Positions 3,054 to 21,894 of a stretch of 22,440 nucleotides of DNA are shown in pieces. The notes under the pieces were generated by a model. The model was given only the letters and a program-made list of their open reading frames with translations, had not been told where the DNA came from and did no database searches. The stretch lies in the IMG/VR virus record IMGVR_UViG_3300049893_000455, positions 1-22,440 of that record. One strand, given 5' to 3'. Each line of letters begins with the position of its first letter. The stretch's first letter is position 1. The stretch is from a virus. The position numbers were made by a program, and so were the translations under genes.

Positions 3054-4160
3054 TTACTTACGAAGATAATTGGTTTTCCACCTTTCGGCCTGCTCTTTTG
3101 TAAAGCCGTAATTCTTGTAGATGTATCCCCAAGATGAGTGCATATCGGGCTTTCTTAGCCCAAATAGGACATCTTCCCCCTCTAGGATTCTACCAACGCT
3201 GTTAGTGGTTGGAGTGGGGCCTATTGGAGTAGAAGGCTCTTTGGGGTCTGGCATGGTCGCAGAAAGCGAGCGATGGAACCCGCGAAGCCATCCAATTGAC
3301 CTAGCTTCATGTTGGGTAGCTGGAGAAGCATCGCCCGCGATTTTTCTGAGGAATTTTCTCAATTGGGTGACTTTATTGGTGTCATTGCCTGCATTTACGC
3401 GCAGCCACATGAGTTGTAGTTTCGCGGATTCACGCTCCGATTTTGCAGAAGGGAAATTATCCGTAAGACAACCGACAACCAAATCGCGGATGCGTGCCCT
3501 ACCATTCAGATTAGTCACATAATTCTCCCATAGATTGGTGTTGTTGAAGATGGACTCGCTAAAACCAGTTCCTTCTAGGATATTGTTGACTGTTATGAAA
3601 CGCTGCGCTGAATTTTGATTCGTGGCTGCTTCTGCAAGATTCAAAGCTTGCGCCTTGTAGCCCAGATAAATCAACGCCCTTACTTTCGGGCCAGCGCCAA
3701 TACCGGCTCCTACTTGAATATTGGAGGCAGCCAGATTTGCGGCATTCGTGTCTCCCAAACCGAGATAGGCCCGGACAACGTTAAACCAAACGCGGTTTGA
3801 TGAGTTTATTCCATCAGCCGGAATATGAAGAGCAAATTGATTTGTGGCCAATTCATTCAATATGTTGGTCGCGTTAATGATTCTTTGCGCGGCTGGAATA
3901 TTGGGCTTTATTTTCCCAAAGGAAAGCGTGTCAAACGCCTGCATACCAACATGTGAGACTTGATTTTTTCGGGCGGGCGGTATTCCAACGAGGTTGAAGG
4001 CAACAACAGCATTACTATAAGTAGATTCTGCCATTGTAATATCGCTCGGGTCGGCTGACTGGAGAGCAACAACCGATGGATGGCTGATTGACCAATTATC
4101 CGCATTTGAGAATAAGATTCCCGCGAGGAGAATTCCGATAATGATAGTGGTAATTTTCAT
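3054..4160 (-). CDS. Exported helical protein of unknown function, 368 aa
   Basis: I place the start at ATG 4160. There the protein begins MKITTIIIGILLAGILFSNA|DN, a typical signal peptide with a likely cut after SNA. The longer in-frame start at 4265 would bury this signal 35 residues in and overlap the preceding gene by 71 bases. The mature part looks helical, with TPR-like segments (VRAYLGLGDTNAANLAA, KVRALIYLGYKAQALNLAE) and many Asn, Ala and Thr residues. A Pro/Thr-rich linker (PKEPSTPIGPTPTTNSV) precedes a final helical segment. The leader CACTAGAAACAACAAACAATAAC has no Shine-Dalgarno sequence. The neighbouring upstream gene also encodes an exported protein. An envelope or extracellular role during late infection, or a host-derived cargo (moron) gene, are both possible; neither is shown. 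Confidence 0.82.
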   Translation of the reverse strand: MKITTIIIGILLAGILFSNADNWSISHPSVVALQSADPSDITMAESTYSNAVVAFNLVGIPPARKNQVSHVGMQAFDTLSFGKIKPNIPAAQRIINATNILNELATNQFALHIPADGINSSNRVWFNVVRAYLGLGDTNAANLAASNIQVGAGIGAGPKVRALIYLGYKAQALNLAEAATNQNSAQRFITVNNILEGTGFSESIFNNTNLWENYVTNLNGRARIRDLVVGCLTDNFPSAKSERESAKLQLMWLRVNAGNDTNKVTQLRKFLRKIAGDASPATQHEARSIGWLRGFHRSLSATMPDPKEPSTPIGPTPTTNSVGRILEGEDVLFGLRKPDMHSSWGYIYKNYGFTKEQAERWKTNYLRK

Positions 4161-4194
4161 GTTATTGTTTGTTGTTTCTAGTGATATTTGATAT

Positions 4195-5235
4195 TTATGG
4201 GTCAATTGTTTGTGTAAATTTAACCCAATTTGCTCCGTTATACACGCGCAATCCCGGCGTGTCATCCGTCTGGTAAATCATCATACCCATAGCAGGAGAT
4301 GCGATGTTATCTCTCATTAACCTCGACATATTCGGGAGAACGACTGCTCCTTCGGGCGTAACTCGAAACGCGCCGCCGCTACCTCCACAATTGATAAAGT
4401 CTCTGTATGAACCTCCAGCATTCTGAATATGAAGCATTGGAGAAGTTGCATCGGAATCTTCACCATTTCCAGAAAAAATCCTAACTGTGGGAGGAAGTCC
4501 GGCTCCAGCTCCCAACGCCCAATTCCTCTGCGAAAATTTAGCTGCCATACCCTCTTTTGAAAGTCCCCAAACTGCAATGCCAGCGTCTGATTCGGAATAT
4601 ATTCCGGGGGTGCTATAGGCCGAAACCACTAATCGCGCCGACTCGGGCGAAAAATAAGAAGAAGACTCAATGTTACCAATATCACCGACAACTGCTTGCC
4701 CAGACGACGCCGAGGCAGAAAACACTACCCCGTCAGCAGAATTGTAAACAGTCAGCCAGCCATCTGCCCCGGCTCCTCCTGACGTTATTCCACTAGCTAA
4801 TCCAAGGCTATTCCCGCTTATCCCTCCCGTTTCTCCGTCCAAGGTTATTATGTTGTAGGGACTTCCACTACCATAATTCTGTAAAAATAGTTTTCCGTTA
4901 CCAAGCGCCCCGCCCATAGTAATATCAACGCTAGTATTACCACCGTTTCTACGGACATCCAAAAAGTTAGAACCATCTGCGCCCTTTACCTCCAATATAC
5001 CATCTTTGTTATTCGCGCCGATGGTCGCAGTAGCAGAAGGGCCATTAAGATAAATACCCTTCTGGTTAGATGCATCAAACAAAGACAAGGTTCCTCCCCC
5101 AAACAACGAAACATTAGCAGAACCATCGCTTTTGACTTTCCCATAATCGAAGTTCATTAGATTCTGCGCGCCAAATGCAGAAAGAATCGTGGCCCAAATA
5201 GCGACCAAACAGAGTATTGTCTTGAGTTTTTTCAT
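4195..5235 (-). CDS. Fibre-like beta-rich protein with signal peptide, 346 aa
   Basis: The protein starts MKKLKTILCLVAIWATILS followed by AFGA|QN, a good signal peptide (lysine n-region, hydrophobic core, AFGA cut site). The rest is Gly/Ser/Asn-rich and beta-like (SLFGGGTLSLFDASN, GILEVKGADGSNFLDVRRNG), like the shaft of a phage fibre or bacterial surface adhesin. The C-terminal part, about 317-341, reads GMMIYQTDDTPGLRVYNGANWVKF (listed here only in outline: GMMIYQT, then NGANWV). This is the closing element often seen in tail-fibre-like and surface proteins of Bacteroidota and related bacteria. The start lies 1 base after the stop of the 5237-6106 fibre gene (ATGTAATATG), so translation is probably coupled. 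A cleavable signal is unexpected on a cytoplasmically assembled virion protein. Confidence 0.85.
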   Translation of the reverse strand: MKKLKTILCLVAIWATILSAFGAQNLMNFDYGKVKSDGSANVSLFGGGTLSLFDASNQKGIYLNGPSATATIGANNKDGILEVKGADGSNFLDVRRNGGNTSVDITMGGALGNGKLFLQNYGSGSPYNIITLDGETGGISGNSLGLASGITSGGAGADGWLTVYNSADGVVFSASASSGQAVVGDIGNIESSSYFSPESARLVVSAYSTPGIYSESDAGIAVWGLSKEGMAAKFSQRNWALGAGAGLPPTVRIFSGNGEDSDATSPMLHIQNAGGSYRDFINCGGSGGAFRVTPEGAVVLPNMSRLMRDNIASPAMGMMIYQTDDTPGLRVYNGANWVKFTQTIDP

Positions 5236-5236
5236 A

Positions 5237-6106
5237 TTACATTATATTCCAAAAGCTACCATCATTACAAAGAATGTAAGCGTCCCCAGAATACAGTGGG
5301 AAGGTCTTCGTTCCCGAGTTGTAAAACAGGAAGTCTGAACCAGCGCCCGAAAGCGTCAGGGTATTGCCCCTGTTTTTGATGAGATACATCCTATCAATTG
5401 AAGACGCAATGCTCGGCATGGTTGCTACACCGCTAGATGCTCCGGTATAGACGTAAAGTGTTCTGATGCCTAATGTGAAAGAGCCGCTAGAACTAGACGA
5501 ACCCACCGAAAGATTTTCACCCACCCGAAGACTTTGCGAGAAATTTCCAGAACCATTAACATCAAGGGTGTAATTGGGAGATTCTGTTTTGATACCAATG
5601 TTGTAATAGGGAGCGGTATTGATGAAAAAAAGAGGGTATGAATTACCCTGCTGCACTGAAAACGCTGGTTGAACCCCATCAGATTTTATCAAAACCATCG
5701 CATATCCTATATTGGGATAGCCCATTGTAATAGTTTGAGAAGTAAGCGTGCCGCTGATGCCGTTCACAAAACTTTTGACACCGCTAACAGTTTGATTTCC
5801 AGTAAGAAGGACTATGTTGCTAGTAGTGCTTACGTATCCGCTCGGGTTAGTTCGTGGATAATAGGTAGAATTGATGTATGCGTTGTTTTGCGCGATGGAA
5901 CCATCAATATCTGTCTGGGTAGAAAAATCTCCAGACTTCGCATAGTTCTGGGGATTGGAGTTCAGGGGATAGAAGGCCCCGGTTAGCTTGCCTGTCGGCG
6001 CTACAACCGTATTTACATTCGCAAGAATTCCAGAAGTGACTTGGGAACAGTAACCAGAAATTTCCGACTGGCTGATTTGTTTTAACCTGATTGTAGAGTC
6101 TGGCAT
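5237..6106 (-). CDS. Tail-fibre-like protein, 289 aa
   Basis: The N-terminus MPDSTIRLKQISQSEISGY closely matches that of the 823-aa fibre at 17537-20008 (MADSTIRVRQLNAAELTGF). This suggests a common attachment module. A region of FYP/YYP repeats follows (FYPLNSNPQNY, then YYPRTNPSGY), and then LLTGNQTVSGVKSF, which is shared with the fibre at 1117-2439. The middle contains YTLDVNGSGNFSQSLRVGENLSVG-type beta repeats (shown in part: TLDVNGSGNFS), typical of fibre shafts. The end (MYLIKNRGNTLTLSG ... DAYILCNDGSFWNIM) resembles the C-terminal tip of fibre proteins in environmental phages. No enzyme domain is seen. The gene is the second after the capsid terminator and overlaps nothing upstream. 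Confidence 0.88.
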   Translation of the reverse strand: MPDSTIRLKQISQSEISGYCSQVTSGILANVNTVVAPTGKLTGAFYPLNSNPQNYAKSGDFSTQTDIDGSIAQNNAYINSTYYPRTNPSGYVSTTSNIVLLTGNQTVSGVKSFVNGISGTLTSQTITMGYPNIGYAMVLIKSDGVQPAFSVQQGNSYPLFFINTAPYYNIGIKTESPNYTLDVNGSGNFSQSLRVGENLSVGSSSSSGSFTLGIRTLYVYTGASSGVATMPSIASSIDRMYLIKNRGNTLTLSGAGSDFLFYNSGTKTFPLYSGDAYILCNDGSFWNIM

Positions 6107-6112
6107 GATTGA

Positions 6113-6120
6113 TATTACAC
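6113..6120 (-). promoter_or_regulatory. GTGTAATA motif upstream of the 289-aa fibre gene
   Basis: Minus strand GTGTAATA lies 6 bases before the ATG in GTGTAATATCAATCATG. No Shine-Dalgarno sequence is present in this leader, so the motif could act at the RNA or DNA level. Confidence 0.35.
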
Positions 6121-6134
6121 TCAGGAAAGACGAG

Positions 6135-6157
6135 GAGGGAAGTGATTATCTTCCCTC
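6135..6157 (-). other. Hairpin across the stop codon of the 117-aa gene
   Basis: The minus strand has GAGGGAAG, a 7-base loop and CTTCCCTC, a perfect 8-bp stem that includes the stop region of the 6146-6499 gene. No T-run follows, so it is not a standard terminator. It may protect mRNA ends or be fortuitous. Confidence 0.35.
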
Positions 6158-6499
6158 GTTAAGAATTTGCTGAACTTGTCGAGAAAGGGGATTGGACTTG
6201 ACTGTTGGAGACGCGGGTTTTTGGAGGGATAAAACATAAGCGCGGAACTGCTTCAATAGAGCCTCGCGCATTCTTTCAGAACTCTCCAGAACCATGCATC
6301 CAACCGAACGAGCATGATTTTCCAAATCAGAACGGGTCATATCACGAAGACGGACAGAGTATTCCCCCTCGTCAATTGTCCCATAGCGCGACAATTCATT
6401 AAATCCCCAAACTTGGTCAAGGGATGTTAGCTCCTTGGAATCAACCTTGGCGTGAACTTGTTTCAGATTTTCCAACTTTGTTTTTTTGGTGCGTGGCAT
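6146..6499 (-). CDS. Small basic protein with a SAP/HeH-like helix pair, 117 aa
   Basis: This 117-aa protein has a basic N-terminus (MPRTKKTKLENLKQ) and a region at residues 54-88 with the pattern MTRSDLENHARSVG ... REALLKQFRAYV. It recalls helix-extended-helix folds (SAP or Rho-N-like), which often bind nucleic acid and also occur in small proteins near phage capsid genes. The C-terminal tail is polar and probably flexible. The gene directly follows the intrinsic terminator of the capsid gene. Its leader TATAATAGGATAAGACATT contains a -10-like sequence and a weak AGGA. A head-completion or DNA-binding role is possible, but no specific function is established. It occupies the place where many phages keep head-tail connector genes, yet shows no connector motif I can name. 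Confidence 0.75.
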   Translation of the reverse strand: MPRTKKTKLENLKQVHAKVDSKELTSLDQVWGFNELSRYGTIDEGEYSVRLRDMTRSDLENHARSVGCMVLESSERMREALLKQFRAYVLSLQKPASPTVKSNPLSRQVQQILNEGR

Positions 6500-6540: not shown

Positions 6541-6544
6541 AAAA

Positions 6545-6568
6545 AACGGAGGGCCGAAGCCCTCCGTT
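6545..6568 (-). terminator. Intrinsic terminator after the major capsid gene
   Basis: On the minus strand a perfect 10-bp stem (AACGGAGGGC and GCCCTCCGTT) closes a TTCG tetraloop and is followed by a run of T (9 in a row, the first two within the stem). It begins 16 bases after the capsid stop codon. This is the clearest transcription signal in the window. It would end or reduce transcripts coming from the head genes before the fibre cluster. Confidence 0.93.
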
Positions 6569-6584
6569 CTGAATTGGGGTTATC

Positions 6585-7754
6585 TTAGATAACGATACCG
6601 ACGATGGAACGGGCGTCCAAGCAGACGCGTCCTTCTTCGAGGAACCCGTAGAAGCCGACCTTCTGAACGCGGGAACCATACATATCGAACTGACCGTCAG
6701 GGAGAACCGAGAAGGTTCCGCCAGATTCGGCCTGCACGGCGACAGGGCGAACAAACGCGCCACGGGTGTTGTCCACGCCGACGCAGATTTGCTGCGTGGC
6801 TTGGTTCGTCCAGTTGGCCGAACTGTTAGCTCCCTGAACCTGAGAAGCGGCGTTATTGCCTGCCAGTGCGAACTGGTTGAACAACACGTTATACTTCTGG
6901 TTGGTTCCGAATTCAATCAATTCGTTGATGTTGACGCCATAGATGCTCTGCATACCAGCATTGCGCCAGATTTCATCGCGGAGAGTGTCCGAGAGGAACT
7001 GGTCACCACGAGACAGCGTTGCGGCTGCATCGGTGCGAATCGGCTGATAGGCGAATGCGCGAATCTGAGCCTTGATTTCAGGCGACACATACAGGTCTGT
7101 GATGCCGTGAGAGTAGGGCTGAACAGGGGTGTTACCGCTGTATGACTCGTTGATTCTCTTGATGCGAACAATCAGGTTGTTCAAGTCTTGGAGCAAGAAG
7201 TTTCCACCAGTCGTCGCCGCAACGGTGTGGCCGTAGGTGGCGGTAGGGGTAGAGGTTCCAGCCAAGATTGGGGTGTAAGCTTCGGCCAAAGCCTTCAGCA
7301 CAACCGCCCAACCATTGCGTTCCTGCTTAACGAGAACTTCGTTAACCATACGCTCGATGGACTTGGAAACGACATCCAAGCGGCTCTTGCGAGCATACTT
7401 CTTGTTGAAGGACACGGCGGAGTCGAGGCGGTATGTTCCGAACTTGACTTCCTTCATGCCTTCGACCTGTGAGGTAGGAAGACCACCAGCTTGTGACTGG
7501 CTCCAAACCGTCACATATCCAGCGCCTTCATTGTAGAACAAGTCTAGCGGGATGGACGGGTCGGAATCCTCATCGAACTCCACATCACGATAAATCGTGG
7601 AAACCGTGCCTGCCGTCATCAGAACCTTCTTGATGACTGGAGCGAGGAACGCGGCGATTGCTTCAGTAGCTTCGCGAGCCACGGCGGAGTTCTTGGAACC
7701 CATAGCCTTGATTAGCTCGATTTGCTCTGGCGTATTCTTGAGTTGAATTTGCAT
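6585..7754 (-). CDS. Major capsid protein (HK97-fold, probable), 389 aa
   Basis: The call rests on length (389 aa is usual), on the gene order protease/scaffold - decoration - capsid, and on the C-terminus. There residues 367-389 (VGFYGFLEEGRVCLD then ARSIVGIVI) fit the P-domain ending of HK97-fold capsid proteins of T4-like and related phages. The N-terminal 50 residues are helical (NTPEQIELIKAMG, REATEAIAAFLAPVIKKVL), like an N-arm or delta domain. There is a well-placed AAGGAG Shine-Dalgarno sequence 11 bases ahead of the ATG. The gene ends 17 bases before a strong intrinsic terminator, as expected for the most abundant virion protein. No cleavage site for the prohead protease can be fixed from the sequence alone. 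Function is self-assembly of the capsid shell. Confidence 0.92.
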   Translation of the reverse strand: MQIQLKNTPEQIELIKAMGSKNSAVAREATEAIAAFLAPVIKKVLMTAGTVSTIYRDVEFDEDSDPSIPLDLFYNEGAGYVTVWSQSQAGGLPTSQVEGMKEVKFGTYRLDSAVSFNKKYARKSRLDVVSKSIERMVNEVLVKQERNGWAVVLKALAEAYTPILAGTSTPTATYGHTVAATTGGNFLLQDLNNLIVRIKRINESYSGNTPVQPYSHGITDLYVSPEIKAQIRAFAYQPIRTDAAATLSRGDQFLSDTLRDEIWRNAGMQSIYGVNINELIEFGTNQKYNVLFNQFALAGNNAASQVQGANSSANWTNQATQQICVGVDNTRGAFVRPVAVQAESGGTFSVLPDGQFDMYGSRVQKVGFYGFLEEGRVCLDARSIVGIVI

Positions 7755-10001: not shown

Positions 10002-11834
10002 TTAACATCCAACAACGCCATAAGGACAAGGAACAGACCAAGATATGCGAGTATTGAAAATTGGGTATTGTTGTGCAAATAGGTCGTTGTAGTCAGCATT
10101 ACCATGCCCGGTAATAATTGCCCCAGTAGAGCTATTTACTATGGTTTCACCCGTTTGGATTCCCGGTATGAAAACGGGCGGAGATGCATTTGAAATCCCT
10201 GATAAAACCGAATCAAAAAATGGAATCAAATTATCCTTATCTCCACCGAATGCGGAAACCCCGTAAGCGATGTCCTTATATCCAGCTACGAAGCTTCGGC
10301 ATTTCAAGCTGGTTCCTCCTTGATAATTGGTGAACTCGTGGGAGTATCCAACAGCACCGCTTCTAGCCGAGGTGCTTACATAAAGGAGTAGATTGGTAAC
10401 GGAAGATTTGTTGGCTTTGTATATCCTAGAATTCATGGCGGTCGTTGAAGTGACATCATTAACGTCCGGCCCGAATCCCTGATTTTTTCTGATGTTGAAA
10501 TAGTTTGGGTGTTTAGACCAATACAAAGAGTCCTCAATTGACTCGTTATTGTGATTACGGAACGGCATTACGCCGCTGCTGGAAACTTGAATTTCCTTCA
10601 AATAACCCAAGTCTTCCCAGTAGGTTATGTCAGTCAAAAAATGGCCAGAAGATGGATTTGGATAGATGTATCTGTATGAGCTACTTCCGCTTGATAGAAT
10701 GTCTCCTTCGGAGAAGACAATATCCATGTATCCTTCCTGCCAAATATTCCAAGGCGCATAATGCCCAGTATCAGAAAAATTGCCTCCGGTTGGACTGACC
10801 AAAAATTGAAGATTGTCCTCGGATAGATAAACTTCCACGTTCTGGTTTTGAGAGTCGTTTGTTAGAAAGAAATTCGATGGTTCGAGCGGAGCGCCCCAAG
10901 GAGGGACGAAAGATTCTCCGTATTCATAATCAAACGTATAGGGATGATATGAATTACCAAACGAATAATCAAAATGCTGTAATCGAAGATTGTCGTTGGG
11001 CGCTTTTGGATACGGGTAAGTTCCATCGTTAATCAACATTACGCCGGGATTAGTAATAGAGTGGTAAAGGCGAATACTTTCATTCCAATTAGGATTACCA
11101 TCGGGACGAGAATAGGGAAGATAAGAAAATCCGAGGCCCGTATTGACGATGACATTCAACCGATAAGTAACGACCAGAATTTCTCCAGTGTTCATTGAGA
11201 ACGTATTCAGGACTCTTGCGAAAGCGGGCGTTGCCTCGCACATTCCAAGGCGCTTTATCTGATTTACTGTTCGGTATCTTCCAGTGACCCAACGATAATA
11301 TTCTGATGTCGAAGAACAGTCTTTTCCCGTTGCATAATCGTCGTATTCGTCGCACGAACAAAACTTTACTCCCCCTAGTCCAGTGACATAAGGACGCCCC
11401 GGCGAAACCATGAACTCATTAAAAGTAATCGGCGTTGTAAAAAATCCCGTGTTGTCTGGCAGAATCCATTGGCGTAATAGGCTTACTCCATTTTCATTGT
11501 TAACGTATCCGCAGCCAGCATCAAATTCACCGGGTCTAGTATAGTATGAAGAGTCTTTGGTTGAATCCCAAGTAGGTCTTCCCCCGACGTAGAGGAAATT
11601 ACTAATTGGGCTATCCAATCCCGTAGTCGGCGGATTTTCGATTGTGTTTGACGCTATTCCATTCCCGACACTCAAGAACCGGAAGCAGTCAGCGAACGCA
11701 AAGTGATATGGATACATCACACCAGTATTGGTAATGAAGTTATCCACATAATCTGACGAACGTATCAATTGGCCATCTTTATGATATACGTCAAATTTGA
11801 ACTGGCCTTGTAGTTTAAGGGCCGCGTGCGCCAT
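10002..11834 (-). CDS. Large structural protein of unknown function, paralogue of the 932-aa neighbour (610 aa)
   Basis: The protein is aromatic and Gly/Ser/Asn-rich and has no recognised domain. It is clearly related to the preceding gene product at 11838-14636. Both share FKFDVY/YKFDLY near residue 15, YPYHFAFADCFRFLSVGNG (41-59 here), FMVSPG (141-146 here), SFVPPWGAPLEP (308-319) and YLSEDNLQFLVS (336-347). There is no signal peptide or membrane segment. The start has a strong GGAGGTTAATCT leader, whose GGAGG is also the last codons of the upstream gene; the two are 3 bases apart. Cysteines are unusually frequent in the first 200 residues (for example FCSCDEYDDY, KDCSS). A fibre, whisker or other virion appendage is a reasonable inference from position and composition. 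Confidence 0.85.
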   Translation of the reverse strand: MAHAALKLQGQFKFDVYHKDGQLIRSSDYVDNFITNTGVMYPYHFAFADCFRFLSVGNGIASNTIENPPTTGLDSPISNFLYVGGRPTWDSTKDSSYYTRPGEFDAGCGYVNNENGVSLLRQWILPDNTGFFTTPITFNEFMVSPGRPYVTGLGGVKFCSCDEYDDYATGKDCSSTSEYYRWVTGRYRTVNQIKRLGMCEATPAFARVLNTFSMNTGEILVVTYRLNVIVNTGLGFSYLPYSRPDGNPNWNESIRLYHSITNPGVMLINDGTYPYPKAPNDNLRLQHFDYSFGNSYHPYTFDYEYGESFVPPWGAPLEPSNFFLTNDSQNQNVEVYLSEDNLQFLVSPTGGNFSDTGHYAPWNIWQEGYMDIVFSEGDILSSGSSSYRYIYPNPSSGHFLTDITYWEDLGYLKEIQVSSSGVMPFRNHNNESIEDSLYWSKHPNYFNIRKNQGFGPDVNDVTSTTAMNSRIYKANKSSVTNLLLYVSTSARSGAVGYSHEFTNYQGGTSLKCRSFVAGYKDIAYGVSAFGGDKDNLIPFFDSVLSGISNASPPVFIPGIQTGETIVNSSTGAIITGHGNADYNDLFAQQYPIFNTRISWSVPCPYGVVGC

Positions 11835-11837
11835 AGA

Positions 11838-14636
11838 TTAACCTCCAGACCAGATGAAGTCGCAGAACATCTGCAATCCGTTCTCCATACTCAATCCGGG
11901 GAATGAGCCGCCTCTCACTGGTGAATAGTAATTGATTTCTTGGTTGTTTGGATAAGCGTAATTTGGGAGCAATCTGCGTCCCGTGCCATTCCAAGATTCG
12001 ACGTGGCGGATTACGCCGGAAGGGCTTCTCCATCGTGTAGGAACAATGCGAAACCCACCAGCAGAATTCAAAATACTAACAGAGCCATACAGTCCATCTG
12101 GACAATATCCCAACAAAACTCCGCCCGCCACATTAGAATCCCAACCGACGTGAGAACTAGCTCCGCTCCAAGAAAATCCAGTAATATCACCATACGACCA
12201 AGTTTTGCCGATTCCCCTACTAAGAGCAAGGTTCGTTGGGTCAATTCCAGTAACAGCGATATATCCGTTTTCTTCTCCCGTTAGAAGACCAGCAAGTATT
12301 CCCGAGTTTCCAAGAAGGCTTTTCATCACTATTCCAGTCATGTCCAAAGACGATGAATATGATGACGGAATTAAACCATTCGAGCTATAAGTTCCATTTG
12401 AGTAAGAAACGTCTTCACTTCCCAAAAACCATTTGGTATAATTAACGTCATTTTCTGGAACATTTACCTTATCTCCTGCTCCCAGAGGGGAACCCGTATA
12501 GGTAAAGTCCTGAGCGACTTGATAAACTCCATTGGAATAGAAATTCGCAGAATCTGAATAAGAACCATATCCTTTAAGATAATATCCCAAGCCAGTGATT
12601 CTTAACCCCAGCCCGCTTCCACTGTATGGCCAGAAAATTCGGGAAGTTTCTCCAGTTTCATTTGGATAACTTGAAACTCCAGAATCTCCACTAAATCCAG
12701 AAAAAAGTTGCCCATACCACCCTTGATTATCAATCAAACAACAATCCATCTTGTTCAAATAAAATCCAGTATCTGCAACAACGCCATAAACGCATCCCCA
12801 CCCAGTTCCCTCGTTTTCTGTCGTGCTTCCACTATTGGAAGTGGACGGAATTACTCCACCAAAAACATAACCAGATGGATAATAAGAATTGCCGATTTGG
12901 ATATTGTCTGTAAACATGGGATGAGAAACATCCAATCCAGACGGCGTATTCGGATTGTCGGAATCAACTCCCGGCCCCATGAATCCGTAGATTGTATGGA
13001 ATCGGTTAATTGAGTCTGGTCTTCCGCCATCCGCGCCTGTAATATCAAATCTTACAGAAGCAATGCCACTTCCCCGATTCGTTAGATAAATTTCTGGAAT
13101 CAAGCGGTAGTGCGGCATATTTGCCGCTCGGCCAGAATTATCGAAGAACAAGAAGTCAATGTATGGCTGCAAGGTCATTTCACCGATTTCTCCAGCAGAA
13201 CTAAGATATGCCAAAACCAACGAGGCATAGCGGCTGTTGGTTCCCATGCTGTTGATTGGAGAAAAATAGGCCGTGCGCGAGACTCTCTTAGACCTTTGTG
13301 GTGTTCCTCCAATGCCAGTTGGAGAATTCAATCCACTATTCGGTAAAGTTCTGAGATATGTTGAGAAAACGGCTCTCTGTCCGTAATCTGGCGCATTTGA
13401 ATCAAATCCATTTTTGCCCCTCGTCGCATAGGAAACTGGCCACCTGCTCAAGTTGGGAGAAACGTATCCCAAAGTCTGATATGTATAGTTTACTGGGTCG
13501 AGATTTGTCGCATAATCTCTGATAGAAATAAGATTTTCCAATCGAATATTGGTGGGTGTTGCTACAGTAACAACACTGGTTGATTCCTCTTGGGATTGAC
13601 CAGAGTAATACCATTTATCCGGCTCAGTTGGCCAATCGTTTTCCCTATCTGAATGGATATACGCTCCACCAGTTGCGAGTTTTGAATAGTTGCCCATCAA
13701 TCCATCCGAATTATAGGCTCCTGATTCAGTTGTCGGGGCGACACCATTATCGCTTACCGCAAACTGAGAATTGTCTGGTGATAGATAGAAATAAAGCTTC
13801 TTGCATTGGCGATATTTAGGCTCCATCTGGTCGCCCCAAGCGGGAATAAAACTCGAACCGAGTGCGTCAACCATTTGAAGACCCGGCAAGACTTGACGAT
13901 AAATACCGCTGCAATTTGCCCATTCATAAAGCATTCCCGTTTCTGAGCCGTTGACACCCGTTGCGGCGTTTCCTGTATAGAACCATCCATTTCCGTCATT
14001 CTTGCCAGAGAAGAACGTTCTGTTTTTGAAGTTTTGGAAGTTAAGGCTTAGTTGATAGAAAATGGTGGCAGTAAATCCACTTGGCAAAGTAACTGTGCGG
14101 TCTGCAATACTAAAGGCCCCTCTTCCTGTTATGTCTGAACCGCTTCCCGGCGAAACCATGAAAGAAGTAATGGTGATTGTCTGGTTGGAGACGGTTCCAT
14201 TCTCGATTGCGCCAGTCGGGATTGTCCATCCACGATAAAGGCTGATTCCTTGGTCGGTGAATTTGCTTCCACATGAAGAAGATTGGGCATTTGAATATGT
14301 CTCGTCGTGAGGGCCGCCGATTTCATATCCTTGCCATCCAATATACTGCCCGCTTTGAGCGCCGATTCCAACATATCCATTCGATACTTGGAATCCGGTA
14401 AGAGGAAATCTAAGGCCCGTTCCCGTTTGATTGTTCGCGTGAGTAGAGCCAGTTCCAAGAGACAAAAATTTGAAGCAATCAGCAAAAGAATAGACGTAAG
14501 GGTAATTCAAGCCAGAGCAGGTGATGTCGTTGTCGAACCATTCTGTTGATTCGACTAGCCTTCTTTCGGCTCCTCTTCCGCTATACAAGTCAAACTTGTA
14601 TGAGCCTTTTAATTCGCATTGTATGCTTGAATTCAT
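11838..14636 (-). CDS. Very large structural protein of unknown function, 932 aa (paralogue of next gene)
   Basis: This is the longest gene in the window. The product is Gly/Ser/Asn/Tyr-rich, with no enzyme motif, signal peptide or membrane segment. Shared landmarks with the 610-aa protein are YKFDLY (13-18), YPYVYSFADCFKFLSLGTG (45-63), FMVSPG (159-164), SFIPAWGDQMEP (262-273) and YLSPDNSQFAVS (284-295). The second half has little counterpart in the shorter protein and holds many TG/SG turns (SGLGLRITGLGYYLKGYG, DMTGIVMKS, AVTGIDP, GDITGFSWSG). The start follows AAGGAAAAAG and, further up, the motif GTGTAATTA. A virion appendage such as a head or tail fibre is inferred from location between portal and protease genes and from composition. 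Confidence 0.85.
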   Translation of the reverse strand: MNSSIQCELKGSYKFDLYSGRGAERRLVESTEWFDNDITCSGLNYPYVYSFADCFKFLSLGTGSTHANNQTGTGLRFPLTGFQVSNGYVGIGAQSGQYIGWQGYEIGGPHDETYSNAQSSSCGSKFTDQGISLYRGWTIPTGAIENGTVSNQTITITSFMVSPGSGSDITGRGAFSIADRTVTLPSGFTATIFYQLSLNFQNFKNRTFFSGKNDGNGWFYTGNAATGVNGSETGMLYEWANCSGIYRQVLPGLQMVDALGSSFIPAWGDQMEPKYRQCKKLYFYLSPDNSQFAVSDNGVAPTTESGAYNSDGLMGNYSKLATGGAYIHSDRENDWPTEPDKWYYSGQSQEESTSVVTVATPTNIRLENLISIRDYATNLDPVNYTYQTLGYVSPNLSRWPVSYATRGKNGFDSNAPDYGQRAVFSTYLRTLPNSGLNSPTGIGGTPQRSKRVSRTAYFSPINSMGTNSRYASLVLAYLSSAGEIGEMTLQPYIDFLFFDNSGRAANMPHYRLIPEIYLTNRGSGIASVRFDITGADGGRPDSINRFHTIYGFMGPGVDSDNPNTPSGLDVSHPMFTDNIQIGNSYYPSGYVFGGVIPSTSNSGSTTENEGTGWGCVYGVVADTGFYLNKMDCCLIDNQGWYGQLFSGFSGDSGVSSYPNETGETSRIFWPYSGSGLGLRITGLGYYLKGYGSYSDSANFYSNGVYQVAQDFTYTGSPLGAGDKVNVPENDVNYTKWFLGSEDVSYSNGTYSSNGLIPSSYSSSLDMTGIVMKSLLGNSGILAGLLTGEENGYIAVTGIDPTNLALSRGIGKTWSYGDITGFSWSGASSHVGWDSNVAGGVLLGYCPDGLYGSVSILNSAGGFRIVPTRWRSPSGVIRHVESWNGTGRRLLPNYAYPNNQEINYYSPVRGGSFPGLSMENGLQMFCDFIWSGG
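11840..11846 (-). promoter_or_regulatory. Strong ribosome binding site of the 610-aa gene
   Basis: GGAGGTT lies inside the last codons and stop of the upstream gene, with GGAGG 7 bases from the ATG. It fixes the start at 11834 and allows independent initiation on the downstream paralogue, arguing against a frameshift fusion of the two genes. Confidence 0.75.
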
Positions 14637-20046: not shown

Positions 20047-21894
20047 TTACAGCAGGACGGGAGAGAATGTCGCGGCTGTATCGTCTTTCGGCTGACGTAT
20101 GATGTCGCCATAGCATTTCAATGCCCAAGTGGCAAGCATCAGGGCTGTGTAGGAGTCGCGGCGCATACGGGAAGCCGAAGTATCTCGTTTCATAATCTGG
20201 GGAAGGTCGAAGCTTTGAGTTCCCTTGGCGGTTGTTTTGACTTCGATGGAGGCACATTCATACTTTTGCTGCTTGATAAGAATTTCTTGAGTGTCAATGA
20301 ATTCAGACGTATTTTCTTCGTCCACCAGAGACAAATCCACCTTGGCGGAAGTGGCTTTCTCAAAAGCACTTGAGTTGGCTCGGATGCCTCCGCCAAACCA
20401 GATTTTCTTGTAGTCAATGGCTCCTTGGAGATTTTCATTTCCCTTGCGGATGAAATCTGTCGTGAAGTATTGGGTAAAGGCAATCCTGTAGATTTCCTTA
20501 TTCCAAGTCCTGCGGGCATTTTTCAATTCTTGTTCAAGGTCTGCGCCGTCTTTTTCTGGGTAGAAATCGAAAATCTTGATTTCAATGTTGTCCTTTTTGA
20601 ACAGTTCATTCTCATTTGCCGCTTCAATAAACTGGTATCCAGCGTAGTCAATGATTATCATCTCGATATTGAAGTTTTTCAGTATGTAGTAGAAGTATTT
20701 GATGTGGTCTTTGAGGTCTTTGCCGCATTTGGCGTAGTTGTGAACAACGGTTCCTCCAAGCCTTCCCTCGGATATTTTGCTGTCGTCTATCTCCATCACG
20801 CACATCGCAAAATTATCAGCGGTTGGCGAGTTAGAGAAGTTTGGGTCAATGGACAGGATGTATTTCTTGTCCTTCGCGCCCTGCAACAATAGCGTGTCAG
20901 GTTCTCCATCAGGTATGGTGCAGTCAATCATCTTCTTCATGGAGAAGTAGCTATCTGAACCGTCAATGAACTGGCCGCCATATTCGCGGGCGAAAGTAGC
21001 TTGGTGAGCCTCATTGCCTTGGGCCATTTCAATGATTGCCTTGTCAATACGGTCTTCTGGAACGGAGTCAAAGGACAATTGGCTGACGAAATATCTGGCA
21101 TTGGATTCGGGCATCGTCTCCGCGTAAATCTGCTTCACAAACTCGTCATACTTCTTGTAAAGATACTCGCATGTGTATGAGGCGGAAGATAGCCCAATCA
21201 GTTTGGCGTTGTTGTCGAACTTGATTCTTTCTGATTCTTTGAGGACTCCCTTGCGGATAAGTTCATCCTCCTTTTCACGAATCATCTGGCGCTCTTTGAT
21301 GTCCTGCGGGGCTACGAGATAAGGTATGAGAACGCGCTCGACCAATTCCTCATTCATCAGCAGGAACTCGTCAATAACAAGGACGTTAGCGCGGAAGCCA
21401 CGAATCTTTTCGCCGTTCAGCGGGATGGCAATGATTTGACCGCCATTGATTGACCACTTGAATTCGTCATTTCTTTTACTCTTTACTCCCATTGCTTGAA
21501 ATAGGAGGGTCGCCTCTGGGCTATCGCAGATTTTCTCAATATGATTGAAGATGAATCTGGCCGTTCTGAAAGTCGGGCCAGCAATCAAGATGCTGCTTTT
21601 GGGGAAAAACACGCATTGCAGGATGCAGAACATCGCCGCTGAAAATGTCTTACCAAGACCACGGCCCCACACGCAAAGGGTATTGTTGCTTTGGAGCATC
21701 CCTTTGATGTTGATAATCTGGTCGGGGTAAAGGCGGATTCCTGTAAGGAGTTCCGTAGTTAATCCGAGATTGCGATAGAGAAATTTGGCAAGAAGTATCC
21801 TAGCCTCGCGCTCCTCAAGTTCTCCCTTGATGTTCGCGATGACCTTGTTTACATCTTCAATCGGTCTATCGTATTTTGGCGGCGAATACCACAT
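20047..21894 (-). CDS. terL: Terminase large subunit (ATPase-nuclease), 615 aa
   Basis: This protein is the DNA packaging motor that docks on the portal and cuts the concatemer. The ATPase domain shows Walker A GRGLGKT (77-83), Walker B VLVIDE (171-176, with catalytic Glu176) and a coupling motif LSSASYT (235-241). The RNase H-like nuclease domain shows three acidic positions: Asp350 in ILSIDPNFSNSPTADNFAM, Asp416 in MIIIDYAGYQ and Asp580 in RRDSYTALMLATWAL. Length is usual for the family. The start lies 3 bases after the stop of the 119-aa gene; the leader has no good Shine-Dalgarno sequence (GTTTAAGAT), so coupling is likely. No small subunit is recognised beside it. Confidence 0.97.
   Translation of the reverse strand: MWYSPPKYDRPIEDVNKVIANIKGELEEREARILLAKFLYRNLGLTTELLTGIRLYPDQIINIKGMLQSNNTLCVWGRGLGKTFSAAMFCILQCVFFPKSSILIAGPTFRTARFIFNHIEKICDSPEATLLFQAMGVKSKRNDEFKWSINGGQIIAIPLNGEKIRGFRANVLVIDEFLLMNEELVERVLIPYLVAPQDIKERQMIREKEDELIRKGVLKESERIKFDNNAKLIGLSSASYTCEYLYKKYDEFVKQIYAETMPESNARYFVSQLSFDSVPEDRIDKAIIEMAQGNEAHQATFAREYGGQFIDGSDSYFSMKKMIDCTIPDGEPDTLLLQGAKDKKYILSIDPNFSNSPTADNFAMCVMEIDDSKISEGRLGGTVVHNYAKCGKDLKDHIKYFYYILKNFNIEMIIIDYAGYQFIEAANENELFKKDNIEIKIFDFYPEKDGADLEQELKNARRTWNKEIYRIAFTQYFTTDFIRKGNENLQGAIDYKKIWFGGGIRANSSAFEKATSAKVDLSLVDEENTSEFIDTQEILIKQQKYECASIEVKTTAKGTQSFDLPQIMKRDTSASRMRRDSYTALMLATWALKCYGDIIRQPKDDTAATFSPVLL

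Follow-up and report, generated by a model that had tools for sequence, protein, structure and literature searches.

T5-like phages are known to exclude superinfection by means of small lipoproteins, blockers encoded beside the receptor-binding gene. In T5, llp adjoins the gene of the receptor-binding protein (RBP) on its downstream side, and Llp stops the RBP from binding to the receptor (PMC9586334); the Llp of BF23, although not homologous to it, is cognate to the receptor of that phage (PMC4728585). In phages of Porphyromonas gingivalis, genes with signal peptides that follow the Q-rule (Gln directly after the signal-peptide cut; PMC5837995) have been proposed to alter the outer membrane of the host (PMC10367356), two Bacteroides phages carry one or two signal peptides (PMC5723332), and Pantoea WceF is a bacterial exported enzyme of tailspike fold (PMC7949094); gp38 of PMC12946066 has no signal peptide and is irrelevant here. 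Here we describe two adjacent genes, P0001 and P0002, that encode predicted exported proteins directly behind the tail-fibre gene P0003 in IMG/VR virus record IMGVR_UViG_3300049893_000455, analysed over its whole length of 22,440 nucleotides (hereafter, the window). Relatives of the window are designated by G numbers (records) and L numbers (loci or contigs).

Signal peptides and gene order of P0001 and P0002

A first-pass annotation of the window had pointed to two adjacent genes with strong signal peptides inside a virion operon; this observation is confirmed, and the interpretation given with it is partly supported. N-termini were rated by a home-made score of n-, h-, and c-regions (K/R start, 8–16 uncharged hydrophobic residues, and the −3/−1 rule; cut-off, 4), which flagged P0001 and P0002 alone among the 19 called genes. 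The observed score was attained by 4 of 5000 own-composition shuffles for P0001 and by 5 of 5000 for P0002, and 14 of 9500 shuffled N-termini from all window genes passed the cut-off. In a control with 45 annotated coding sequences of Escherichia coli, modA, ybhC, ybhG, ybiJ, and two polytopic membrane proteins were picked, and no cytosolic protein. The N-termini read MKKLKTILCLVAIWATILSAFGA/QNLMNF for P0001 and MKITTIIIGILLAGILFSNA/DNWSIS for P0002 (slash, predicted cut; Table 1). The GA/Q site of P0001 fits the Q-rule if the cut is after A23; that of P0002 does not. Neither protein has a lipobox, a Cys at the cut, or a second transmembrane segment. The longest open reading frame of P0002 begins at 4265, overlapping the end of P0001, whereas the signal peptide begins with the ATG at 4160. 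As both proteins look Sec-exported by their predicted signal peptides, they are unlikely to be ordinary virion parts assembled in the cytoplasm, as had been argued. AlphaFold2 models of the mature proteins had mean predicted local distance difference test (pLDDT) values of 33.6 and 33.5, were unusable, and were kept out of fold searches; the earlier view of P0002 as a helical protein resembling tetratricopeptide repeats is compatible with its helical model and gains nothing firmer from a model of such quality.

Every recognisable gene of the window lies on the minus strand, in the series terminase, collagen-like fibre, probable portal, major capsid protein (MCP)-like, P0003, P0001, P0002, a 73-aa gene, a PHROG-1084 protein, and the fibre P0004. 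The virion operon stands, the terminase, MCP-like, and fibre genes all sharing one strand. The gaps are 1 nt (P0003–P0001), 34 nt (P0001–P0002), and 5 nt (P0002–next gene), which place P0001 and P0002 as members of the fibre run. The G+C content (GC) of P0001 and P0002 (0.466 and 0.464) is close to that of the window (0.461), and their codon use is ordinary. One promoter-like site (10 of 12 matches) overlaps the end of P0003, and the number of such sites does not exceed that in shuffles. The morons lom and bor of lambda are autonomous units with exported products, encoded among the late genes and expressed in lysogens. An autonomous moron was rejected for P0001 and P0002 on the grounds of the tight gaps, promoter-like sites no more frequent than in shuffles, and the non-foreign GC and codon use.

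One fibre-tip type and its predicted exported neighbours

P0003 matches a PHROG virion structural protein (expectation value (E), 3e-4); its N-terminal half resembles the fibre genes behind the MCP gene in relatives, and its C-terminus forms a tip domain. A hidden Markov model (HMM) of the tip, run on the viral loci collected to that point (identical genes collapsed; Bacteroidota and E. coli loci left out), detected three unique genes with E < 1e-40, each of them directly before two tandem signal-peptide genes; a weak fourth match in L048 (E 0.034) has no two such genes behind it. The 840 genes called in 12 records include 28 with a non-lipoprotein signal peptide, and five genes lacking one precede two that have it, namely the three tip genes, the fibre P0005 of G001, and an 86-aa gene of G003; in this count, pieces were ≤20 kb with genes cut at their ends, and L093 was left out, its later genes being in L159. 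That the exported proteins themselves share the tip domain of the fibre was also considered and is not supported by the tip HMM, which gave a best E of 0.03 (a 157-aa protein of G010).

The proteins behind the tip differ in their bodies. Those of the window are fibre-like (P0001) and probably helical (P0002), the 97-kb G001 has two small fibre-like paralogues, and the 163-kb G008 has two spike-like proteins of 609 and 586 aa in tandem directly after the tip-bearing fibre gene. The first ~43 aa of the two tandem 173-aa proteins of G001 match P0001 at 49–50% identity (E about 1e-8), with the signal-peptide cuts aligned; three more exported genes lie behind a P0004-like fibre of G001. Synonymous and non-synonymous codon changes between the two paralogues number 8:2 in the signal peptide and 28:37 in the body (one-sided Fisher test, p 0.03), showing that the signal peptide is under tighter constraint than the body.

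Exchange at this position is seen between G001 and G010, whose MCPs are 96.6% identical and whose fibre genes are 87% identical up to residue 249. Beyond this residue, G001 has 1385 bp comprising the tip and two signal-peptide genes, whereas the corresponding 483 bp of G010 hold a different tip and lack signal-peptide genes; homology restarts at the stop codon, and the genes beyond are 94.5–97.8% identical. This swap between near-identical flanks indicates that the tip and the exported pair were exchanged as one unit, in one pair of relatives outside the closest kin of the window. Upstream of the terminase, a comparison of G010 with G011 shows five flanking proteins of 90–99% identity and a sixth of 44%, and exported proteins that have only the first 55 aa in common (51%), with unrelated bodies of different lengths.

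Conservation as a pair, which the first-pass annotation had proposed to check, does not hold for these two sequences: neither P0001 nor P0002 has a full-length homologue among the INPHARED phages or in IMG/VR, nor does P0002 have a homologue in GTDB contigs; P0002 also gave no match in 296 Bacteroidota genomes, where an empty answer proves little. The recurring feature is a slot, in which tandem, differing exported proteins stand behind one fibre-tip type and move with the tip.

Table 1. Positions of the exported pair, the adjoining fibre, and other features (window coordinates unless a locus is named)
Feature	Coordinates	Strand	Remarks
P0001	4195..5235	minus	predicted exported fibre-like protein, 346 aa; starts 1 nt after P0003 stop
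P0001 signal peptide	5167..5235	minus	residues 1–23; cut after G22 or A23, before Q24
P0001 mature N-terminal module	5104..5166	minus	QNLMNFDYGKVKSDGSANV..; common to two tandem G001 proteins, bodies otherwise different
P0001 C-terminal motif	4204..4362	minus	residues 292–344, ..RDNIASPAMGMMIYQTDDTPGLRVYNGANWVKF; matches in exported Bacteroidota proteins
P0002	3054..4160	minus	predicted exported, probably helical protein, 368 aa; signal-peptide start
P0002 signal peptide	4101..4160	minus	residues 1–20; cut SNA/D
P0003	5237..6106	minus	tail-fibre gene directly upstream of exported pair, 289 aa, no signal peptide
P0003 tip domain	5240..5506	minus	residues 201–289; common to G001 P0012 and G008 P0011 (alignment)
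Terminase large subunit	20047–21894	minus	PHROG E 2e-23
MCP-like protein	6585–7754	minus	label inferred from order and size; named by no family
Probable portal		minus	label inferred from order and size; named by no family
Collagen-like fibre; 73-aa gene; PHROG-1084 protein; fibre P0004		minus	other window genes
L230 protein	3268–6252		roughly 1000-aa tail-fibre-like protein with signal peptide and Gln
L231 protein	3205–6270		roughly 1000-aa tail-fibre-like protein with signal peptide and Gln

Among the readings considered, a receptor-masking or receptor-stripping role of the exported pair appears the most likely from the sequence, and we favour it tentatively. P0001 and P0002 are best regarded as the exported part of a host-recognition cassette that can be exchanged and that also includes the P0003 tip, as if the fibre tip and the exported proteins targeted the same surface structure. 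In the proposed mechanism, both proteins would probably be made late, alongside the products of the tail genes, pass through the inner membrane via Sec, and then lose their signal peptides, to act in the periplasm, or outside after lysis, on the envelope structure bound by the tip. The fibre-like P0001 and the G001 pair would mask this target and the spike-like G008 pair would strip it, with the outcome that the infected cell would escape re-adsorption and progeny would not be caught on debris. A site of action in the envelope or outside, with exclusion as one role, had been put forward in the first-pass annotation and is reasonable. The predicted signal peptides, the gene order, the recurrence behind one tip type, and the joint exchange in relatives are read from the sequence; we infer the late timing of expression, the export itself, what the proteins act on, that they mask or strip it, and receptor binding by P0003.

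Several points weigh against a masking or stripping role. The coupling of tip and pair was noticed post hoc, and the pair is untraceable over time because neither protein has a full-length homologue. The tip domain occurs in four further viral contigs outside the clade (L228, L229, L230, and L231), of which L228 and L229 have no exported gene adjoining it (one signal-peptide gene lies 2.3 kb downstream in L229), and also in proteins of isolated Streptomyces phages, some annotated as minor tail protein. Other exported proteins of the clade lie at a second site, upstream of the terminase, with no recognised tip adjoining. Having no lipobox or other recognised surface signal, P0001 and P0002 would be periplasmic until lysis and released then; they are large and, unlike Llp or Cor, without a lipobox. 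In certain T5-like phages, even Llp and the RBP are loosely linked (PMC12980165).

Alternative explanations

The alternative that survives best, although we consider it unlikely, is that the slot holds exported glycan-active or adhesive proteins unrelated to the receptor (depolymerase-, esterase-, or lectin-like), which would be released by the infected cell, loosen or bind the extracellular matrix surrounding it, and aid the spread of progeny. The clade does export the LamG lectin-like P0007 of G001 (Pfam E 5e-16), proteins of G003 with GDSL (E 4e-13) and DUF4838 (E 1e-9) domains, and P0009/P0010, which are spike-like by weak matches; the exported, tailspike-fold WceF trims its own exopolysaccharide (PMC7949094). 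P0001 and P0002, however, belong to no enzyme, lectin, or other family in Pfam and NCBIfam and match nothing significant in PHROG and PDB, and the joint exchange with the fibre tip would be left unexplained.

The four tandem exported genes of G003 (457, 622, 921, and 1660 aa as scanned) take up ~11 kb upstream of the terminase (L189, 6808–18013), and three of their products have a WTNYP-type mature N-terminus in common, a module found only in phages already collected and not found in the 296 Bacteroidota genomes. In the fibre block of G001, three tandem proteins that are LamG-like by eye and lack a signal peptide occupy 8505–10536 of L093, with the exported LamG-like protein further downstream.

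Capture of host surface genes, also raised in the first-pass annotation, would make the pair fibre-like exported proteins from Bacteroidota-type hosts that alter the infected-cell surface or are passengers. The adhesin-style C-terminus then ascribed to the fibre-like P0001 is recognisable, since residues ~292–344 match a motif of exported Bacteroidota proteins: full P0001 matches 24 of the 296 genomes at E ≤ 1e-3, mostly via this motif and seldom elsewhere in the protein, and all 11 proteins inspected have an N-terminal signal peptide with Gln directly behind it. These proteins (..RNAIASPATGLLIYQTD..YNG..W) resemble P0001 in signal peptide, Gln at +1, and motif, but are chromosomal, have the motif near the N-terminus rather than the C-terminus, and are unrelated in the remainder; a weak match to the motif also occurs in one cyanophage (E 0.01). 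The tip domain is likewise present in 10 of the 296 genomes, with a signal peptide and Gln in six of the seven proteins whose N-terminus is visible (one by eye). Against these resemblances stand the lack of a full-length host homologue, the non-foreign GC and codon use, the conservation of the signal peptide between the G001 paralogues, and a spacing with scant space for the promoter and terminator of an autonomous moron, the one promoter-like site at the end of P0003 notwithstanding. Motif and composition point in different directions, and we regard capture as improbable.

More doubtful still is that the pair are virion parts loaded from outside, namely exported fibres that fold in the periplasm and join virions at or after lysis via the conserved mature N-terminus. 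Such loading would suit mature N-terminal modules that recur in front of differing bodies, an arrangement also known from branched tailspikes. The tip also forms the end of two tail-fibre-like proteins, of 994 aa in L230 and 1021 aa in L231, that bear their own signal peptide before Gln, with more signal-peptide genes behind; the neighbouring one in L230 may encode a membrane anchor. In addition, the body of G008 P0010 has two counterparts, one in the 622-aa protein of G003, which like P0010 carries a signal peptide (33% over 181 aa), and one in a 388-aa protein of L152, which carries none (28% over 284 aa), indicating that one body type is both exported and non-exported. On the other hand, these two long proteins might instead be adhesins that the cell exports, and no tailed-phage virion is known to assemble in this manner. 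The earlier premise that virion proteins should carry no cleavable signal calls for some qualification in view of these two tail-fibre-like proteins from unrelated viral contigs. L231 also encodes a reverse transcriptase at 3–458 (PHROG E 1e-53).

Least probable is that the hydrophobic N-termini are virion anchors or mis-called starts, with P0001 possibly beginning at Met27, which is conserved in all three P0001-type proteins, for even though the prediction comes from a home-made score, the canonical n/h/c pattern and −3/−1 rule, often with Gln at +1, recur in unrelated families, and the signal peptide is more constrained than the body. A dual translation start at Met27 was considered as well; the other exported families have no general counterpart of it.

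Clade, candidate hosts, and comparison with known systems

The window is a single 22.4-kb record of Caudoviricetes without an isolated relative. Relatives of its terminase number 354 among the stretches of IMG/VR, and its MCP-like gene has relatives at 75 loci; terminase matches in isolated phages reach just 25–28% identity and the MCP-like gene has no match there, so that the clade is without a cultured representative in that collection. The nearest kin of the window itself is only a 6.7-kb contig around the terminase (L002). G004, G006, G009, G012, and G013 have no signal-peptide gene at the cut-off (G012 and G013 being 20-kb records), and G005 has such genes solely far from the fibre block; the trait is therefore patchy. 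The signal-peptide listing of the clade enters two G001 genes twice (L093 and L159). In more distant MCP relatives, scanned without genes open at the 5' side, signal-peptide genes are mostly small, lie several kb before the MCP gene, and are in several cases lipoprotein-like, presumably reflecting a lysis block. Small exported proteins with weak matches to outer-membrane β-barrels (OmpA_membrane, OMP_b-brl) were noted in L180 (1929–2534) and L172 (9623–10210). In the window, a terminator-like hairpin of 12 pairs followed by a T run lies directly behind the MCP gene (6543–6570, minus strand), and the fibre block may thus be transcribed separately; two adjacent large genes of the virion region (10002–11834 and 11838–14636), with N-termini alike by eye, are perhaps paralogues.

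As to the host, the terminase profile matches one Flavobacteriales contig of a metagenome-assembled genome at 53%. Gln stands at +1 in all five exported fibre-block proteins of G001 (two by eye, the score having chosen another cut there) and is absent from this position in the exported proteins of G003, G010, and G011. G005 encodes a prepilin-like protein (pseudopilin; L179, 18746–19477) with an N-methylation motif, DUF1559, and an H-X9-DG motif, an odd phage cargo; we take DUF1559 with the H-X9-DG motif as a signature of the Planctomycetes–Verrucomicrobia–Chlamydiae (PVC) group, and the protein suggests a PVC host. Bacteroidota and PVC bacteria are thus the candidate hosts of the clade, as judged from sequence.

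Neither cassettes of a tip and an exported pair nor signal-peptide tail fibres were found described in the literature searched, which covered few subscription journals or preprints. Speculatively, and with rather low probability, Sec-exported tail fibres and tailspikes might be widespread in phages of Bacteroidota and PVC bacteria, being exchanged with the virion tip and serving as soluble receptor blockers or strippers or mounted on virions after export. If the receptor-masking or receptor-stripping role is true, exported neighbours would indicate the receptor class for phages of unidentified host and receptor, and surface-active enzymes would be obtainable from exported spikes.

Among described systems, lambda lom and bor, exported and encoded among late genes, resemble the predicted exported pair of the window, and differ in not being tied to fibre tips. 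For the P. gingivalis phage genes, the part of the text seen mentions no fibre-tip link or joint exchange (PMC10367356), and P0001 alone of the window pair could fit the Q-rule. WceF is alike in being exported with a tailspike fold and unlike in being a bacterial gene with a Tat signal and its own exopolysaccharide as substrate (PMC7949094). The T5 oad(pb5)/llp and BF23 hrs/llp loci are similar in that an exported gene lies directly downstream of the receptor-binding gene, as a predicted one does 1 nt after the putative receptor-binding P0003 and likewise in G001 and G008, and in that cognate exported proteins of sister phages may be non-homologous and the modules exchanged, as between G001 and G010. 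They differ in that Llp is one small periplasmic lipoprotein, whereas the slot of the window holds two large non-lipoproteins, and some of its counterparts have fibre or spike bodies; owing to the size, these bodies, and the missing lipobox, the pair is not classed as Llp or Cor. Altogether, these large environmental phages, a clade without a cultured member, seem to have a system comparable to that of the T5-like phages, but with exported proteins that are large, resemble fibres, spikes, lectins, and esterases, and move with the tip.
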